A stretch of DNA of 28,590 bases from a virus. Of this stretch, positions 9,284-28,411 are shown piece by piece (position 1 is the stretch's first letter; each line of letters begins with the position of its first letter). Made by a program: the position numbers and the translations under genes. The notes beneath the pieces are model-generated. The model had not been told where the DNA came from. It ran no database searches and saw only the letters and a program-made list of their open reading frames with translations. The stretch is from positions 1 to 28,590 of IMG/VR virus record IMGVR_UViG_3300020472_000128; one strand, given 5' to 3'.

Positions 9284-9901
9284 ATGAAACACATTATTAA
9301 AGCTAGTCCTCTGTTGAAGGACTACGATCTCCGAGACAACTTTCCGGTTATCATCAGGGTGAGAAACTTCAACGAGGTTACGGCAAAAGATTTCTCTGAC
9401 AAGATGGCAAAGGCTCACAACACAGGTCAACCAGTCATCCCGGTTGTTATCGACAGCTATGGCGGTGCGGTGTACAGCCTTATGTCCATGATATCAGATG
9501 TTCAGAATTCGGAACTGCCAGTTGCGACGATCATCCAAGGTAAAGCCATGTCGTGTGGCGCTATCTTTTCGACGTTCGGTGCCAAGGGCATGCGATATAT
9601 GGATCCTCATGCCACTGTCATGATTCACGATGTAGCTTCTGGCGCATGGGGGAAGGTTGAAGAGATCAAGGCGGACGCTAAAGAGTGTGAGAGGCTACAA
9701 AAGAAGGTTTACCACATGATGGCGCAAAATTGTGGCAAGCCAAAAAACTATTTCTTAAAACTGATTCACGAAAAAGGACATGCAGACTGGTACCTTGAAC
9801 CAGACGAATGCCTTGAGCATGGATTAGTTAATCACATTGCAGTGCCAAGATTTAATGTAGACATTAATGTGGACATTACCTTTGGCGAACAAAACGAATA
9901 A
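9284..9901 (+). CDS. ClpP-like serine protease with complete catalytic triad
   Basis: A 205-aa ClpP/crotonase-fold peptidase. Conserved blocks: PVVIDSYGGAVYSLMSM (substrate strand and oxyanion glycines), GKAMSCGAI with nucleophile Ser90, and TVMIHDV with His115. Ser and His are 25 residues apart, exactly as in E. coli ClpP. ADWYLEPDECLEHGLVN aligns with RDNFMSAEEA..GLID and places Asp168 as the third triad member. It lacks ClpP's processed propeptide. It starts two bases after dnaE with only a weak ribosome site, suggesting translational coupling. It may degrade host or phage proteins with a host Clp ATPase, or act in head maturation, since some head proteases have this fold. A second ClpP-like gene lies at 14606. 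Confidence 0.85.
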   Translation: MKHIIKASPLLKDYDLRDNFPVIIRVRNFNEVTAKDFSDKMAKAHNTGQPVIPVVIDSYGGAVYSLMSMISDVQNSELPVATIIQGKAMSCGAIFSTFGAKGMRYMDPHATVMIHDVASGAWGKVEEIKADAKECERLQKKVYHMMAQNCGKPKNYFLKLIHEKGHADWYLEPDECLEHGLVNHIAVPRFNVDINVDITFGEQNE

Positions 9902-13649: not shown

Positions 13650-14144
13650 ATGAGCAAAAAGAAGCTAATTTTAAATGAGTCAGTTACTCGCAGGTTTATG
13701 CGTCTAGCTGAGATCGAATCAAAGTTTACCGATCAGTTCTTGACTGAGTTGGGCGAAGAGGAAATGGACTTGGGCGCTCCCATGGGCGACGAGGGAGAAG
13801 AACTCCCCGGCGACGAGGGACCAGAAGAAGAGATGCCCGAAGAAGAAATGGGTGATACCGTCGAAGTAGATGCTACCGAGCTAGTCTCTGACATTGTTGC
13901 TGCACTGCAGAAGCAAGGCGCAGACGTGAGCATGGAAGGTGGCGAAGAGGAAGAGGCGCCTGATGGTGAGGAAATGGCACCAGTTGCTGGTGACGAAGAA
14001 CTCCCCCCCGAAGAAGAGGAGCCTCTTATGCAAGAGCTTGAGAAAGCCGGCATCACTGTCACTAACGACAATGCCATGATTAATGAGGTTGCCCGTCGAG
14101 TCGCTAGGCGACTTATGGCAGCAAACAAGCCCCGCAAGGGCTAA
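13650..14144 (+). CDS. Highly acidic protein, probable virion core or scaffold component
   Basis: A 164-aa product. A short basic head (MSKKKLILNESVTRRFMRL, residues 1-19) is followed by an extremely Glu/Asp/Gly/Pro-rich middle (about 30-125; repeats such as PEEEMPEEEMG and GGEEEEAPDGEE), then a predicted helix (NDNAMINEVARRVARRLMAA) and a basic end. The opening LILNE followed by Ser resembles a cleavage site for T4-type prohead proteases, which cut after Glu. Acidic low-complexity cores with helical ends occur in prohead core proteins such as T4 gp67/gp68, but this link is inference. The repeats are low complexity, so similarity searches would mislead. Confidence 0.7.
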   Translation: MSKKKLILNESVTRRFMRLAEIESKFTDQFLTELGEEEMDLGAPMGDEGEELPGDEGPEEEMPEEEMGDTVEVDATELVSDIVAALQKQGADVSMEGGEEEEAPDGEEMAPVAGDEELPPEEEEPLMQELEKAGITVTNDNAMINEVARRVARRLMAANKPRKG

Positions 14145-14237: not shown

Positions 14238-14606
14238 ATGGAGTATGCACTAGGAGCCATTATTGGCTATTTTGTAGGGTGCGCAGTAACAAACCTGATG
14301 ACCTTGGGTCGCATGGGCATGTTTGTCGAGAAGACGGGCTTGCAATCGTTGAAGCTGATCGTTTCGGCTGTGGAAGATATTGAGTTCATGCGCGCTTTAA
14401 AGTACAGGGGGATCGAAGAGACGGGAGACAAAGCCATGCTTGTCCGTCAAAAGAATATGGATGATTATGAAATAGATCGATGGAAAAAGGCAGTTATTGA
14501 TAATTACTTAGCCAGCTTTCCAACCGTCTATAAGAGACAGTTCGTAAAGTTTACGAATTGGGAACAGGCAGTGCAGCATTTTGAAGACAACAGAGGAAGG
14601 CTATAA
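14238..14606 (+). CDS. Membrane-anchored protein of unknown function
   Basis: A 122-aa product with ATG 14238 preceded by GGAG at six bases; an in-frame GTG at 14211 lies inside the palindrome and is unlikely. Residues 2-22 (EYALGAIIGYFVGCAVTNLM) form a glycine-rich membrane segment without a cleavage site, so it is probably an anchor. The remainder is soluble and helical, with KNMDDYEIDRWKKAVIDNYL. It overlaps the start of the second ClpP-like gene (TAATG), so the two may work together at the membrane. No family recognised. Confidence 0.7.
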   Translation: MEYALGAIIGYFVGCAVTNLMTLGRMGMFVEKTGLQSLKLIVSAVEDIEFMRALKYRGIEETGDKAMLVRQKNMDDYEIDRWKKAVIDNYLASFPTVYKRQFVKFTNWEQAVQHFEDNRGRL

Positions 14607-15262
14607 TGATCATGTCACCAAAGAAGAAGCCCAGCGCCGAGGAAGAAAAGGATAAAGAAGAGTCACAGGAAGCCTCAGAAATGACAACAGAGCAGCTAGC
14701 CGCTGCGTTGGGTCTTGAACCAGACGAAGAAATGCGCATCGTCGGACTCTATGGCGACATTACAGAATCCAAATCTCGCGAATGTTTAAGTGGCATGCTT
14801 GTGCTGCACAACTCTGGAAAGAGAGAAGAGGAGGGCAAGGAGATATGGGATCCTATGGAGTTCATTATCTCTACCTACGGCGGCAGCGCAGACGACATGT
14901 TTGCCCTCTATGATATAATGCGTGTTATCCAGAAAGACTGTGAGATTCACACTTTCGGGCTTGGTAAGGTCATGTCGGCTGGCGTGTTACTGCTAGCAGC
15001 AGGCACCAAGGGCAAGCGTAAGATTGGCGCTAACTGTCGCGTCATGATCCATTCGGTCATCGGCGGCAATCATGGCTCGCTGCATAACCTAGAAAACGAA
15101 ATGGACGAAATTAGAAACTCGCAAGAAAACTATGTTAATGCGCTGGTTAGAGAAACCAATCTGACAAAGCGTACACTCAAGAGACTGTTAGAAAGAAAAG
15201 TCAACGTATACCTATCAGCCACGGAAGCGGTTGAGTATGGCATTGCGGACATTATTGTTTGA
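14606..15262 (+). CDS. Second ClpP-like protein, triad Asp apparently replaced by Asn
   Basis: A 218-aa ClpP-fold protein. After a charged Lys/Glu-rich N-terminal ~28 residues come RIVGLYGDI, EFIISTYGGSADDMFALYD, GKVMSAGVLLLAAG (nucleophile Ser124) and CRVMIHSVIGG (His149), again with Ser-His spacing of 25. At the position of the ClpP catalytic Asp (RDNFMSAEEA) it has KVNVYLSATEA, placing Asn200 there. It may therefore be weakly active, inactive like cyanobacterial ClpR, or use another acid. It follows a membrane-anchored protein and precedes the endolysin gene. Its acidic/basic N-terminus is absent from the first ClpP-like protein at 9284, so the two are diverged paralogues rather than a recent duplication. 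Confidence 0.85.
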   Translation: MIMSPKKKPSAEEEKDKEESQEASEMTTEQLAAALGLEPDEEMRIVGLYGDITESKSRECLSGMLVLHNSGKREEEGKEIWDPMEFIISTYGGSADDMFALYDIMRVIQKDCEIHTFGLGKVMSAGVLLLAAGTKGKRKIGANCRVMIHSVIGGNHGSLHNLENEMDEIRNSQENYVNALVRETNLTKRTLKRLLERKVNVYLSATEAVEYGIADIIV

Positions 15263-22872: not shown

Positions 22873-23256
22873 ATGAAAACACAAAAAGCGATAGACAACT
22901 GGTTCAGCTTGCTCAAAGAAGCGGCAACCAAAGATCCGACATATATTCAACGCTCTTACGAGGTTGAGGTTGATGTTCGCATCAACAAGGAACTGGGAGG
23001 CAACAAGGACCAGACGCTTGATGATATTCGTTCGATTGAACGAGTTACCACCGTGACTGACCCTGCCCGAGCAGGTGCGATCAGCCGTGCGCGTGCCACT
23101 GATCAGTATTGGTTCAACCGGTATATTATTAAGTTTGAACTTAACACCGATCTGTCACCGAGATATTGGGTCAAGAGATACTTGGTTAAGGATTTGGCAA
23201 AGATCAAAGGACTGAACATTGTTCGGTGGGGTACCCCGACTGAGATGACAACGTGA
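22873..23256 (+). CDS. Virion-like protein with capsid-targeting-type N-terminus
   Basis: A 127-aa product. The head MKTQKAIDNWFSLLKEAA shows W10 and a cleavable-looking LLKE followed by Ala, like the T4 internal-protein targeting peptide (a short N-terminal MKTYQEFIAE-type segment cut after Glu). The body reads IQRSYEVEVDVRI, DDIRSIERVTTVTD and YIIKFELNTDLSP; the IRSIERVTTV block occurs in marine phage structural proteins as I recall them, but I cannot name one. No membrane segment. The first of three genes (with 24059 and 27617) with this type of head. Confidence 0.65.
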   Translation: MKTQKAIDNWFSLLKEAATKDPTYIQRSYEVEVDVRINKELGGNKDQTLDDIRSIERVTTVTDPARAGAISRARATDQYWFNRYIIKFELNTDLSPRYWVKRYLVKDLAKIKGLNIVRWGTPTEMTT

Positions 23257-23483
23257 TCGGATCATTAATAAAGATTGGGCAGGGAATGCATGTCATAACC
23301 AGCAAATTCTGGGTGGGCTTCCAAGAACGAGAGCAGGAACAAATGCAAAAGGAATATTACTATGAGATTTTTTCAATGGGGAACACAGATGGCAAGAAAC
23401 GTCACACAATCAATGTTCGCGATTTTTCGGAGAGTATTGAAGAGGGGAACATCCAGATCCTCTCTGCTCCGCGAAAAGCATGA
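23253..23483 (+). CDS. Unknown small protein
   Basis: A 76-aa product starting at GTG 23253, overlapping the previous stop. It begins MIGSLIKIGQGMHVITSKFW and contains EREQEQMQKEYYYEIF and HTINVRDFSESIEEG, mixed polar helix and strand. The composition reads as genuine coding sequence to its end. A weak ribosome site means its start is unsure; a later in-frame ATG exists at 23286. Its 3' part overlaps the next gene in another frame. Function unknown. Confidence 0.55.
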   Translation: MIGSLIKIGQGMHVITSKFWVGFQEREQEQMQKEYYYEIFSMGNTDGKKRHTINVRDFSESIEEGNIQILSAPRKA

Positions 23484-23682
23484 ACTAACGTATCAGGTCG
23501 AACTGCTTAGAGCACACAACAGGAAGCTAAGCGAAACACTTGAACAGGTGAAAGATGAGAACATTTTATTGTGGCAACACATGGAAGAAATGAAAGAGGC
23601 AGAGAGAGCCATCATGAAGTCTCTCACTGATGAGTACGAGGCTCAACTAATAAAAGGCTTGATGCCAGTGGGGGATGCGTGA
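23437..23682 (+). CDS. Small coiled-coil protein, start uncertain
   Basis: An 81-aa product if started at TTG 23437, four bases after GGAG. From about residue 10 onward it is a strong coiled coil (HELTYQVELLRAHNRKL, ETLEQVKDENILLWQHMEEM, AERAIMKSLTDEYEAQL) with a short tail. An upstream ATG at 23362 has AAGGA but gives 121 bases of overlap with the previous gene, and its added N-terminus (RFFQWGTQMARNV) reads as out-of-frame noise. The coil is typical of a phage assembly or chaperone-like protein; no family recognised. Its stop shares bases with the next start. Confidence 0.5.
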   Translation: MKRGTSRSSLLREKHELTYQVELLRAHNRKLSETLEQVKDENILLWQHMEEMKEAERAIMKSLTDEYEAQLIKGLMPVGDA

Positions 23683-24041
23683 AAATGGACAACACTGAAC
23701 ACGGTGCTGACGATATTATTGAAATGGTTAAGGCTGAAGATATAGGCGATATTGCCGAGAGTCTAAAGCCGAAACCGCCGCCAAAGCTAGCTCCGAGAGG
23801 TATCCGTACGTTTACTGTATGTCGGCAGAGCGATGAGACAGGTGTATCAGGCGAGGGCGTTGTTATCGAGGGCGTCGAGTTGGCATCAGGTCACTGCATC
23901 ATTCACTGGCTGTATCCACCACCTAGAGGTGGTATCGCCATATTCGACAGCTTGGGAGATTTCCTAAAGGTCCATGTTGAACCCCATCCTGCAAACAAAA
24001 CAATCATTACGTTTGAGGATGGAGAACAGAATACATACTAA
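23679..24041 (+). CDS. Unknown protein, beta-rich domain
   Basis: A 120-aa product from GTG 23679 (GGGGG just upstream; ATG 23685 is the alternative). Residues 1-35 are acidic and proline-rich (LKPKPPPKLAPRG), then FTVCRQSDETGVSGEGVVIEG, ASGHCIIHWLYPPPRGGIAIFDS and TIITFEDGEQN form a small beta domain (motif quoted in parts). The R.SDETGVSGEGVV..GV pattern recurs in phage and plasmid proteins of unknown function, as I recall. No catalytic residues stand out. Confidence 0.6.
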   Translation: MKMDNTEHGADDIIEMVKAEDIGDIAESLKPKPPPKLAPRGIRTFTVCRQSDETGVSGEGVVIEGVELASGHCIIHWLYPPPRGGIAIFDSLGDFLKVHVEPHPANKTIITFEDGEQNTY

Positions 24042-24058
24042 TTACTGCAGGTAGGCGC

Positions 24059-27000
24059 ATGGATTATAAAACTATTCTAGAGAACTGGCAGAAGTTCGCA
24101 CAAAGCACAAGACCGTTGACTCTCAATGAAACCCGCGAGATTATGAATGAAGTCTCTGCGCAGGTTGCTGACAGGATCTATGACTGGATGCGCGAGACAC
24201 GCGGTTTAGACTATGATTTCAATGAAATCTTTGGCGAGAACATGCGCGTCGTTTTCCCCATGGACAGTGCAGACACTCGCATGCTCAAAGCTATTATGCG
24301 TGGCGTCAAGATTGCAGGCTGGTTGCCTCCGATTGGTGACGGCATGCGACAACGCTACCGGAGCATTTACGCCTACGATAAGAGTCAAGAAACCGGAAGC
24401 AACCTCAACCCCGATGGCGGCGAGTGGGAGCCAACGAAAGAAGAATGGAAGGCATGGGAAAATAATCAGGGTACCGATCCGTATGGTCGCCAATTCCCCA
24501 CGAAGAAAGTGAAGCAGAAGCGTCAACGCCTTGCTGCTGACGGCGGCGGCGAGTATGAGGTTGAGATTGATGTAGCTGACCTGACTATGGAGCGCCGGGT
24601 CGAACAGGTCATTCCCAAAGGACCGAGAGCGGGCGAGACGATTACTAAGGTTCAGAAGCAGGGCATCAACAAGATCATTGGCGGTCTTGAAAAGAAGGGC
24701 GAGATTCCCGAGGGTTCCGCGCAGTGGTGGGCGAAGAACCAGACATTCTATACGAAAGATAATAACCACAAGAAAATCTCCCAAGGGCTGATCGAAGACA
24801 GATCAGAGAACATGCATGTTATCCTGTCGCGTCACCCCATCGACGTGCTGCGCATGAGCGACATTAGTAATATTTCGTCATGCCACAGCGAGGGTCATGA
24901 ATATTTCCACTGTGCCAAGCATGAGGCGAAGGGTCATGGACCTATCGCGTACGCAGTCACAGAGGCAGAACTTAATAAACTTCTGACACCTTCTGAAGAA
25001 AGAGAAAAGCCGATTGCGAAGCTGGACAGAATGTATGACACGATGAGCCAAGCTGAGAGAGTCACGCAGATTCGTCAGGACTATGACACGGGCAGTCCCG
25101 AGGGTGCGTTGGTGCTATTGTGGGTGTGGGCTAGGTCCAACCACGGCACAAAGTGGTGGAGAGAACTTGACAAGCGGGTTGAGATGGCAGCAAAGCCAGA
25201 GAAATTCAAAGAGGTCGCACTGATCTCCAAAGCGAAAGAGTTAAACATCAGCCCTGAGTTATTTAAGCAGTACATTAAAAACTATGAAGATGCAAAAGCT
25301 GATCAACTTCCCGGCTTCAAGCCATACGAAGGCATCATATCACAAGAAGAATACGATGCCGCACTAAAGAAGCACAGCGAAGAAGCTACCCGAGCGCCAG
25401 ACAAGAAGGACATTGGTGAGTTTGATGATGAAGAAATCTTTAGAGATCGAGACAGGGACGTTGAGGGCATCGGTGTAAAGACCCGCGTTAGGCTCAGAAA
25501 GTTTGTGGACGACCCCAACGAGCTAACCTTTACGGCTCCCGAAAGCAGGACATACGGCACAAGTACCCCCGGCTTTGTCGGCGCAGTCAGAGAGTTTGTG
25601 TGGGAGAAGCAGAAAGAGATATTCGCTCAAGAGTTGGGAGATATTGATCCCGAGACTGGCAAGGGCGAGGCAACCACGTATTTCATACCGCAGTTAGATT
25701 ATCTCACACGCTACGGCGGCAGCTACGAAGATACGAGAGATGGAGAGGTGCTTAGTCTGTTCTTTCGACATGGCATGAGCGAGGGTGCGGAAGACCCTTA
25801 CCCCTTTGGTATAAACGTAAACCACGACTCAGAGGGTGAGGACGAGGAAGAATACAACCAGCTTTATGATGAGTACGAGAATACTGTTAATGATTTGAAC
25901 GAGCAAGCAAACAACGAGTTAACGCATACAACCTTCGGCGCACACGCTTCTGAACCCGGCTGGGGCGAACAACCTTATGTATCAGCAGATGGATCGCTGA
26001 CCTTGAGGATCCCATTGGGTGAGGGTGAGTACTCCATCCCCGAGAATACCTATGGTGGCGATGCTAGAGAGTTTGCGGGCGTAGTGGATCTTCCCAGCGA
26101 ATACCCAGAAGAAACAAACTGGGAATTGAACGATGACGAGTTGGAGATTGAATACCGATTTACCTGCGAGGACTGCCAGACCCCCGACGACGCCGACTAT
26201 TTCCTAGATTACATGCGAGAGTTGGACGGCAAGTACGACCGATTCTATGAGATTGTTAGAAGAAAGCTGGTCGAAGAAGGATACGCTGCCAAGAGCGCAT
26301 GGGACAACACAGCCAGCGAGGTCGAAGACTTAGAATCAAAACTCAAGAACTTTAATGTTATTGGAGATGACGACGATGACGACCCGACAGGCGAAATCTG
26401 GTTCAATCTTGGTCATGGCACCGGCGCCGCGAACCCAGACGTACCACTAGACCTCAAGCTGCCCGTTCAAGAGCTTTATTGGTTAACCAAACATCCCAGC
26501 ATGGGTGCTGCCGGCGGTCTTGGTCGCAACGTGTTTCACTCAGGCGGTGGCGTTCCAGACATTATAGCAAAGGCAGTGTCAGGCAAGAGAGAACGTAACA
26601 TAGTGTGGGTCGGTCCCGGCACCAACTCGTCCTTCAATCGCTTCTTTAGAGAGAAGTTATTAAAGTTGGAGATGGCGGCAAACAACTACGCATCGAAGCA
26701 GATCGATCTTCCGTTCGGAGACAAGTACGCGAAGCCAGCCTATGAGGGCATCAGTTTTGCCAAGGACACGCAGGTTGGCTTGAAGTTTGGCGATGCCGAG
26801 CATCGTGAATCAGCAACAAAACCCATCTTCCTACGATTTAGGGTTGTAGTCAATAGCAAGGATAACTTGGAAGAGTTGCAGGGAGCGTTCCACTTTATTG
26901 AGTTTATCGACAACCACATGGACATGCTGCTTGAGGCAGCGAAGGACATAACACAAACCTTTGTTATCGATCCTAATCTTGAGATTGCAGCAGAGATTAA

Positions 27001-27613
27001 AGAAGAATATCTTAGTGGCGATAAGCAGATTGGCATGAGCAAAGAGGCTATTGATACTTTCGCTTACGACGACAATGCAAGCAACCACACAAGGGCAATC
27101 GCGGAGTGGTGGTCATCCGGCGACACTTGGAGCAAGATGAACGACTTTGAAAAAGAGATTGTAACTGAGAGGTACTTGCGCCCCATGTCAGCCGGTAGGC
27201 ATATTCCGTGGGATGACAAGAAGCACCTACCTACTGGCTGGGAAGGCGCACTAAGAGATCATATGTATTCCGCTGGAGTAGCCTCCGCAATCATTGACAA
27301 CTTAGACTTCAAGGCACATGCCAGCCCAGAGATTACAGAGAAGCATTTTGGAACGGAAGAAGAAAGAAACGAGAAGCGTATTGAATATGAGTTGAAGATA
27401 GCCAAGAATCGTTGGAAAGCGACTCACGGCGAAGATCCTTCCGAAAAAGAGGTCGCATCATGGCGCAAAGAGATTATGAACGCGCTAGGCATGGGTGACG
27501 CAGCGCCGTTAGGCACTAACGCCATGTCCGAGCGAGTAGCATACCTAAAGAAAGCCTTGACAGAGACAAAAATACGTGCTAAGATAAGAAGGATTATTAA
27601 AGAAGCGGAGTAA
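24059..27613 (+). CDS. Giant 1184-aa probable virion or ejected protein, unknown
   Basis: The largest gene in the window and not recognised. The head MDYKTILENWQKFAQS shares the W..F pattern with the heads at 22873 and 27617, suggesting capsid targeting, with LTLNE followed by Thr at residues 20-25 as a possible cut site. A standout conserved-looking block spans 257-294: SRHPIDVLRMSD then ISSCHSEGHEYFHCAKHEAK (Cys275, His276, His280, His284, Cys285, His288, His293). It is dense in Cys/His and could bind a metal. The middle is very acidic (DSEGEDEEEYNQ; a run of six Asp near 770-775). The C-terminus has GTNSSFNRFFREKLLKLE and ends in a basic helix (RAKIRRIIKEAE). It could be an internal protein injected with the DNA, or a large scaffold-like enzyme. 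Confidence 0.75.
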   Translation: MDYKTILENWQKFAQSTRPLTLNETREIMNEVSAQVADRIYDWMRETRGLDYDFNEIFGENMRVVFPMDSADTRMLKAIMRGVKIAGWLPPIGDGMRQRYRSIYAYDKSQETGSNLNPDGGEWEPTKEEWKAWENNQGTDPYGRQFPTKKVKQKRQRLAADGGGEYEVEIDVADLTMERRVEQVIPKGPRAGETITKVQKQGINKIIGGLEKKGEIPEGSAQWWAKNQTFYTKDNNHKKISQGLIEDRSENMHVILSRHPIDVLRMSDISNISSCHSEGHEYFHCAKHEAKGHGPIAYAVTEAELNKLLTPSEEREKPIAKLDRMYDTMSQAERVTQIRQDYDTGSPEGALVLLWVWARSNHGTKWWRELDKRVEMAAKPEKFKEVALISKAKELNISPELFKQYIKNYEDAKADQLPGFKPYEGIISQEEYDAALKKHSEEATRAPDKKDIGEFDDEEIFRDRDRDVEGIGVKTRVRLRKFVDDPNELTFTAPESRTYGTSTPGFVGAVREFVWEKQKEIFAQELGDIDPETGKGEATTYFIPQLDYLTRYGGSYEDTRDGEVLSLFFRHGMSEGAEDPYPFGINVNHDSEGEDEEEYNQLYDEYENTVNDLNEQANNELTHTTFGAHASEPGWGEQPYVSADGSLTLRIPLGEGEYSIPENTYGGDAREFAGVVDLPSEYPEETNWELNDDELEIEYRFTCEDCQTPDDADYFLDYMRELDGKYDRFYEIVRRKLVEEGYAAKSAWDNTASEVEDLESKLKNFNVIGDDDDDDPTGEIWFNLGHGTGAANPDVPLDLKLPVQELYWLTKHPSMGAAGGLGRNVFHSGGGVPDIIAKAVSGKRERNIVWVGPGTNSSFNRFFREKLLKLEMAANNYASKQIDLPFGDKYAKPAYEGISFAKDTQVGLKFGDAEHRESATKPIFLRFRVVVNSKDNLEELQGAFHFIEFIDNHMDMLLEAAKDITQTFVIDPNLEIAAEIKEEYLSGDKQIGMSKEAIDTFAYDDNASNHTRAIAEWWSSGDTWSKMNDFEKEIVTERYLRPMSAGRHIPWDDKKHLPTGWEGALRDHMYSAGVASAIIDNLDFKAHASPEITEKHFGTEEERNEKRIEYELKIAKNRWKATHGEDPSEKEVASWRKEIMNALGMGDAAPLGTNAMSERVAYLKKALTETKIRAKIRRIIKEAE
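27557..27585 (+). promoter_or_regulatory. Possible sigma70 promoter for the HAD gene
   Basis: TTGACA at 27557-27562, 17-base spacer, TAAGAT at 27580-27585 (4 of 6, keeping the key T1, A2 and T6). It lies in the 3' end of the giant gene, about 30 bases before ATG 27617. Weaker than the other promoters and inside coding sequence, so chance is possible. Confidence 0.35.
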
Positions 27614-27616
27614 ACT

Positions 27617-28411
27617 ATGAAGAAACATCTCGATACATGGAATCATTTTCTTAATGAGTCTAAGCTAAGGGTGTTCGACTTTGATGACACGCTGGCTGTG
27701 ACTGACGCAGACGTTATGGTGACCCGAGCAGACGGGACAGAGTTTAGGTTGTCACCAGCCGAGTACGCGGTGTATGAACCCATCGCAGAATATAATCCAG
27801 CAACCAGAGAATACATCAACGAAAAGGGTGAGGTGTTCAACTTCAGTGAGTTCGACAGACTCATCAATCCCCGACAGGTGGAGCAGGTTGCACGGATTAT
27901 GCAGAAGGTTGTTGATGCAGAGATGCGCGACGGTGCAGGTAGAAAGATCGCAATCCTGACCGCACGGGCTGACGCTGCAGCCAACGATATTATGGGCTTC
28001 ATTGAGGACGTGTTGGGCATTGATGGCAGCATGTTTGAAATGATTACGCTAGGCACCAGCGATCCATACGCGAAGAAAGAATGGATTGAGAATGAGATTA
28101 TTAACCTTGGGGCTAAGGACGTTTTGTTCTTCGATGATTCACCAAAGAATATCGCAGCAGTTGATGAGTTGAAACGTGAGTATCCCGAGGTCACTATCGT
28201 CACGCGCCTTGTTCACTATGCAGAGGGCATGGACGAGGACAAAGATCCAGAGTTAGATCACGGAGAGTTTCAAACTAGAATGAGAAGACAACACGCAGGT
28301 CATAAGAAAGATTTGATTGGCAAGGGTGATAATAAGGACACCGGAGGTGGCAAGGGTCACAAGAAGCCAAAGATGAAGCGTAGTAAGTCTTCGCCTCCCG
28401 GCGGTGCGTAG
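27617..28411 (+). CDS. HAD-superfamily phosphatase with capsid-targeting-type head and basic tail
   Basis: A 264-aa product. After the head MKKHLDTWNHFLNE (residues 1-14, LNE followed by Ser), RVFDFDDTLAV gives motif I (Asp21, Asp23), ILTARAD is motif II, KKEWIENEI is motif III and VLFFDDSPKNI is motif IV. Substrate unknown; T4 PseT-type phosphatases share this DxD core. A charged acidic linker (EGMDEDKDPELD) leads to a strongly basic tail (GKGHKKPKMKRSKSSPPG), probably for binding DNA or RNA. GGAG precedes the ATG. The head resembles those at 22873 and 24059, so it may be packaged in the capsid. Confidence 0.8.
   Translation: MKKHLDTWNHFLNESKLRVFDFDDTLAVTDADVMVTRADGTEFRLSPAEYAVYEPIAEYNPATREYINEKGEVFNFSEFDRLINPRQVEQVARIMQKVVDAEMRDGAGRKIAILTARADAAANDIMGFIEDVLGIDGSMFEMITLGTSDPYAKKEWIENEIINLGAKDVLFFDDSPKNIAAVDELKREYPEVTIVTRLVHYAEGMDEDKDPELDHGEFQTRMRRQHAGHKKDLIGKGDNKDTGGGKGHKKPKMKRSKSSPPGGA

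Follow-up and report, generated by a model that had tools for sequence, protein, structure and literature searches.

The internal proteins of phage T4 (IPI, IPII and IPIII) carry short N-terminal capsid-targeting sequences that are cut after Glu by the prohead protease. IPII and IPIII start with MKTYQEFIAE↓A (arrows mark known or presumed cuts), IPI starts with MKTFKEFTSTTTPVSTITE↓A, and the solved IPI chain begins at that Ala. In IPIII, residues 4 and 7 are responsible for targeting, and residues 8 and 10 for processing (PMC9026906). Phages phiKZ and SPN3US have a prohead protease of the same broad class, which also cuts after Glu (PMC9026906). Here, we describe N-terminal peptides of this kind ("heads") on three proteins encoded at positions 22873 to 28411 of IMG/VR virus record IMGVR_UViG_3300020472_000128. 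The window is this complete record of 28,590 nucleotides (28.6 kb), in which 36 genes were called. Judged from sequence, the heads are very probably T4-type capsid-targeting propeptides, with a very broad cargo set, of uncultured marine phages from the T4 superfamily. The proteins and their heads are as follows.

22873..23256, plus strand: 127-aa (amino acid) protein, head MKTQKAIDNWFSLLKE↓A, then an unannotated body
22873..22920, plus strand: predicted capsid-targeting propeptide of the 127-aa protein, residues 1-16, from motif match and conservation, cut predicted after Glu16
24059..27613, plus strand: 1184-aa protein of a large family, core SRHPIDVLRMSD..SCHS..C..E..GHG-IAY, without relatives of solved structure
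24059..24130, plus strand: predicted long-type propeptide MDYKTILENWQKFAQSTRPLTLNE↓T, residues 1-24, T4 IPI-like, W-x-x-F first and [LI]-x-E later
27617..28411, plus strand: 264-aa HAD-fold protein, weak PHROG match to a polynucleotide kinase family, about 40 homologues
27617..27658, plus strand: predicted propeptide MKKHLDTWNHFLNE↓S, residues 1-14, directly before HAD strand 1 (KLRVFDFDDT)

The start codons are those predicted by a simple gene caller. A sequence-only reading of the window had placed W..F/L..E peptides in all three proteins, and they are indeed located at residues 6-17 of the 127-aa protein, 5-16 of the 1184-aa protein and 5-15 of the 264-aa protein, in front of bodies with unrelated sequences. 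The claim of a common head is accurate for the 127-aa and HAD proteins, which fit W-x-x-[FL]-L-x-E-[AS], but only in part for the 1184-aa protein, which has WQKFAQS without Glu at W+6. In this protein, W-x-x-F is present, and an invariant Glu occurs at residue 24 within [LI]-x-E. The background of W-x-x-[FYH]-[LIVM]-x-E is 4.3e-4 per internal 20-aa stretch of related and cultured phage proteins, and the chance expectation is 0.015 heads in the 36 window genes, compared to the two to three seen (P(>=2) = 1.2e-4); part of the motif was chosen in hindsight, and Leu takes the F/Y/H position in the 127-aa head. The independent IMG/VR figures therefore carry more weight than the window statistics.

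In IMG/VR, a related head, MK-L-[LF]-[LF]-ENWR-x-[YF]-[LI]-x-E, is found at protein N-termini. Counts from pattern scans of this database refer to the matches listed, and are hence lower bounds. For the exact pattern ENWR-x-FLNE, 83 of the 86 matches listed are near the start of an open reading frame (ORF), the remaining three all being copies of a single spurious frame. A scan with MKLLLENW only, which left the downstream residues free, identified at least 120 stretches, versus a single match for a scrambled pattern of the same composition. Among the 190 distinct genes in the matches listed, the free positions were mostly occupied by R9 (163 genes), F/Y11 (175), L/I/V/M12 (182) and E14 (155), and 145 genes had [LI]-x-E at positions 12-14. 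The information content of the profile drops from 3.02 bits at position 14 to 0.79 at position 15, and is below 0.6 beyond. When E14 is missing, [LI]-x-E ends at positions 13-19 in 21 of the 35 listed heads, compared to about 8% expected by chance (background 0.0115 per position). This shift is accounted for by a protease site, and not by helix register. Across 257 Gb of genomes from bacteria and archaea, MKLLLENW had 26 chance matches, none of them with the remainder of the head. Complete or near-complete genomes contain 6, 7, 10, 3 and 11 heads, versus 0, 1, 0, 1 and 4 internal matches (about 2000 stretches). Headed genes are often arranged in tandem, with 3-11 per genome.

BLAST clustering grouped 353 unique headed ORFs into 134 body clusters, about 14 of which appeared spurious by eye, leaving about 120 unrelated bodies. 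In an alignment of 94 cluster representatives, only MKLL-ENWR-YL-E remained, with W8 and E14 invariant. The head is thus a short N-terminal predicted propeptide (10-19 aa, or 24 aa in the 1184-aa form) on otherwise unrelated proteins. Most of the bodies have no Pfam match. The matches that were found are to NUDIX, HD, zeta-type or P-loop kinase, cytidylyltransferase-like, nucleotidyltransferase, tRNA-ligase phosphodiesterase and partial protein kinase domains. Several bodies, when read by sequence, have the H-G-T/S start of ADP-ribosyltransferase-like proteins, with one weak Pfam match.

The sequence-only reading had suggested looking for a T4 gp21-like protease outside the window. A protease of this family (Peptidase S77, PF03420) was identified in 20 of 23 contigs that bear heads and are mostly large, but was not seen in the window's own clade. 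Among related records, it was found in 7 of 24 and in 9 of 13, and most of the others are short. As a control, PF03420 was detected in T4 (4e-113) and in eight cultured T4-superfamily phages. Where it could be read, the S77 gene sits between the portal and capsid genes. In contig G054, two headed genes directly follow the protease gene, and in contig G045, one headed gene lies just before and another just after it. Relatives reached via the neck protein of G005, a contig of the window clade (99% identical in L030), have a scaffold-like gene followed by one for a gp23-like capsid protein. At the gp23 cut position, [LI]LRE↓[ASTVN] was present in all 75 capsid proteins examined, that of L030 included, and this site shares the [LI]-x-E cleavage logo with the heads.

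Within the window clade, the heads are conserved among orthologues from seven contigs. In six relatives, the 127-aa orthologues have retained W-x-x-L-[LA]-K-E or something close to it, and the HAD orthologues keep the head in all visible cases. The assignment of the 264-aa protein to the HAD fold is based on motif I (DxDxT/V, here VFDFDDTLA), a match to PF12710 (E 0.0037, below its cut-off) and a match to PHROG 415 (E 1e-6). Nearly all of its approximately 40 homologues have a W-type head, which often stops just one or two residues ahead of HAD strand 1, as in MLKKWKQFLSE↓SKLRIFDFDDT, MKNFNNIWRNYLTE↓TKLRVFDFDDT and MKLLLENWREYLNE↓SKLRVFDFDDT. Distant homologues bear the canonical head, MKLLLENWREFLNE↓SKLRVFDFDDT. 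Three orthologues (L399, L416 and L366) seemed headless, but in the two whose full sequence was read, a normal head is located further upstream. In G039, a 185-kb contig whose capsid protein shares 63% identity with the one from L030, the locus orthologous to 22.8-28.4 kb of the window contains ten headed genes in a run. The heads in this run are mostly MKLLFENWRKYLKE-like, and the genes include the 1184-aa orthologue and a NUDIX-like protein. Another locus, beside a UvsX/RecA-like gene, encodes proteins with the heads MKPIMEGWRRFLTE, MKPLMEGWRRYLKE and MKPIMEGWRSHLRE, and the diverged head MKPVLHKFRDNMRE, in front of differing bodies (G003 gene 66, G004 gene 8, G005 gene 39 and G006 gene 79; the heads are near-identical except for that of G006). 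Three of these bodies were compared by BLAST and found to be unrelated. Near-identical heads on unrelated bodies give this locus the appearance of a swappable cargo slot.

The 1184-aa protein is encoded by seven related contigs (60-77% identity). Among eight orthologues, W10, F13 and E24 are invariant, and in those read, the residue at -2 to E24 is Leu or Ile (LNE, LSE, LNE, IAE, LIE, LTE). A predicted model of moderate quality (pLDDT 73.6, pTM 0.40) has the head as a helix (residues 3-16), followed by a low-confidence stretch (14-28), which fits a detachable peptide. Comparison of the model with the PDB gave no match better than E 0.2, a sequence search found no match, and a structure search of BFVD retrieved unnamed viral proteins only. 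Searches found no cultured relative of either the 1184-aa or the HAD protein, and for a compact relative, the cyanophage match was limited to a short N-terminal stretch. In the window clade there is also a 783-793-aa protein that begins with W-R-[SK]-F-L-T-E-A and is a true paralogue of the 1184-aa protein.

Some members of this family have other architectures. In L314 (2135-4570), L348, L366 and others, they start with MLNDEQILLKTANLLDTLQEKCWDGYKQVGMKKK, a sequence with matches to short stretches in nearly 200 mostly cyanophage records. A 2308-aa ORF in L242 (167-6925) consists of 1184-like parts and a C-terminal 127-aa body after LPTLQE↓S, and in a single contig, L381, the HAD part is fused with a large C-terminal portion that has relatives in the 1184-aa family. 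It is possible that the L242 and L381 fusions are internal polyproteins cut by the head protease of the phage. The 1184-aa protein itself (24059-27613) ends with KIRRIIKEAE. A second terminal motif, MK[LI]TK-x-QL-x-x-IIKEE, starts many small proteins near portal and protease, such as those of genes 125-127, 136 and 138 of G054 (L454-L455), and is possibly a further motif for head loading or for the protease.

The central idea of the sequence-only reading was a T4-like capsid-targeting peptide that is cut after Glu. It is strongly supported by the T4 spacing, the [LI]-x-E site and the stop of information at the presumed cut, and further by the register shifts of the site, the number of bodies, the frequency of S77 proteases in head-bearing contigs, the LLRE↓A/S site of the capsid protein and the headed genes adjacent to the protease gene. 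The observations behind it are a detachable head on unrelated bodies, a conserved site of protease type, the presence of the protease and a matching capsid site in relatives, and the gene neighbourhood. In the mechanism that we propose, the amphipathic N-terminal helix, with Trp and an aromatic residue or Leu three residues on as key residues, would bind the scaffold core of the prohead, so that the headed protein would become enclosed during shell assembly. The gp21-family (S77) prohead protease, which would also trim the capsid protein, would then cut after the Glu of [LI]-x-E and free the body inside the head. Finally, the freed body would exit with the DNA into the host. The cargo would differ by lineage, and comprise nucleotide-acting enzymes, ADP-ribosyltransferase-like and kinase-like proteins and many orphans.

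Several points weigh against this interpretation. Packaging, cleavage and host delivery are steps that we infer. The S77 protease was searched for in the window and its seven nearest contigs and not found, although these contigs end before the head genes of the virion. The 23 contigs of the S77 count had been fetched because they bear a head, and the count is a raw frequency, to be read against the S77 rate of large viral contigs in general. Five cultured phages that encode this kind of protease, namely HTVC008M, Mel-JY01, syn9, S-PM2 and immuto, lack W-type heads. A wide range of residues follows the Glu in the heads (E, S, D, A, N, V and others), versus mostly Ala or Ser in the capsid protein. 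Finally, in other lineages, the 1184-aa family has many members that begin otherwise (MLNDEQILLKTA...).

The heads could also send proteins to the prohead as scaffold or core parts that are later degraded, and not as cargo for the host. Some headed genes do lie between the portal and capsid genes, and one headed protein weakly matches a T4 scaffold family (E 0.007). However, most headed bodies are hypervariable and encoded far from capsid genes, and enzymes can be recognised in several of them (NUDIX, HD, zeta-type kinase and nucleotidyltransferases), which makes this alternative rather unlikely.

Alternatively, the head might be a helix for docking to another structure of the infection stage, such as the membrane, the replication factory or the tail hub, with the Glu as a helix cap and nothing being cut. 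Such docking helices are widespread elsewhere, and the head is amphipathic and, at residues 3-16, predicted to be helical. A helix cap leaves unexplained why [LI]-x-E is displaced by 1-5 residues when E14 is missing, why information drops after the Glu, why the site matches that of the capsid protein, and why headed genes are found beside the prohead protease gene. We therefore regard a docking role as improbable. Chance, or duplication of one ancestral gene, as the source of the likeness between the three window proteins has in its favour that the motif is short and that the 1184-aa and 79x-aa proteins are true paralogues, but it is hardly credible in view of the excess over expectation, the unrelated bodies and the scrambled control, and at the family level it is already refuted.

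With about even likelihood, the heads represent a lineage-wide loading code, by which one exchangeable N-terminal peptide stocks the head with open-ended, swappable effectors that disarm or reprogram the host as the DNA enters. These would include NUDIX, RelA/SpoT-like HD, 2H phosphoesterase-like and ADP-ribosyltransferase-like proteins and kinases (acting on nucleotide signals or NAD), together with the conserved 800-1250-aa protein. Proteins that enter the host with phage DNA are normally learned by virion mass spectrometry only, which is impossible for uncultured viruses. If the code is real, the effector sets of many such phages would be readable from sequence alone, and a large class of orphan phage genes would turn into predicted virion-delivered effectors. 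The heads would also provide a compact cargo-loading tag for T4-like capsids.

All 36 genes called in the window are on the same strand. They encode, with some names assigned by reading of the sequence, a DnaB-like helicase, ribonucleotide reductase, DNA polymerase III alpha, two ClpP-like proteins, dUTPase, a GuaB/GMPR-like enzyme, amidase, GroEL and a PMM-like HAD enzyme, followed by the 127-aa, 1184-aa and 264-aa proteins. The label "virion region" was therefore mistaken, as this is a region of replication, nucleotide and chaperone genes, and capsid genes in relatives are tens of kb away. A further protein had been mentioned alongside the head bearers:

13650..14144, plus strand: acidic 164-aa protein, excluded from the head family, LILNES within LNES-x-TRRFMRLAEI

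Its LILNES lacks the W/F half and belongs to a different motif, and we dropped it as a head bearer. The motif (LNE-x-x-TRRFMRLAEI) resembles instead the scaffold C-termini RWKTLAGIK and RMKKLAGIN (341-aa scaffold-like protein of L030, G039 gene 91). From this likeness, the acidic protein may be a different type of prohead core protein. The two ClpP-like proteins (9284-9901 and 14606-15262) were considered as gp21 homologues. The second matches PHROG head maturation protease families, and the relatives encode an S77 protease as well. It belongs to the ClpP family (PF00574, E 5e-31) and has no Peptidase S77 domain (PF03420). ClpP-fold head proteases do exist, but on these grounds the gp21 assignment was ruled out.

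We found no earlier report of the head motif in the open-access literature. The conclusion that the heads work like T4 capsid-targeting sequences is well supported by the sequence comparison. When aligned on the Trp, the new head has the same spacing as IPIII (Y-x-x-F-I-x-E): aromatic-x-x-aromatic/hydrophobic-[LI]-x-E is found in the 127-aa and HAD heads and in the IMG/VR profile, and the 1184-aa head shows just its first half, the site being shifted in the manner of IPI, where [LI]-x-E is also late. The likeness to IPI, IPII and IPIII extends to the N-terminal location, the length (10-24 residues), the pattern aromatic-x-x-[FYL]-[LI]-x-E, the unrelated bodies and, as far as relatives show, the S77 protease in the genome. 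This comparison bears on function and not on descent from the T4 peptides, since homology cannot be shown at such short length. T4-like heads in cyanophages syn9 (NC_008296, 149735-150883 and 146048-146449) and S-PM2 (NC_006820, 102297-102704), with the sequences MKKFSAFLSEAE, YAKFVNEVTS and YQEFVSEVTS, mark candidate capsid-targeted proteins in culturable phages. Large ejected cargo is a feature that phiKZ and SPN3US would share with the head-bearing phages, and we know of no W-x-x-[FY]-[LI]-x-E head in their propeptides. T4 Alt, a head-packaged ADP-ribosyltransferase with processed ends, is a precedent for enzyme cargo delivered from the head; the ADP-ribosyltransferase-like headed bodies have weak matches only, and the likeness drawn here is one of kind. 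Unlike the T4 internal proteins, the new heads are Trp-based (MK-L-[LF]-[LF]-ENWR), and there are 3-11 headed genes per genome instead of three internal proteins. Capsid targeting, known in T4 from a few coliphage proteins, would thus extend to a large group of uncultured marine phages with about 120 cargo families.

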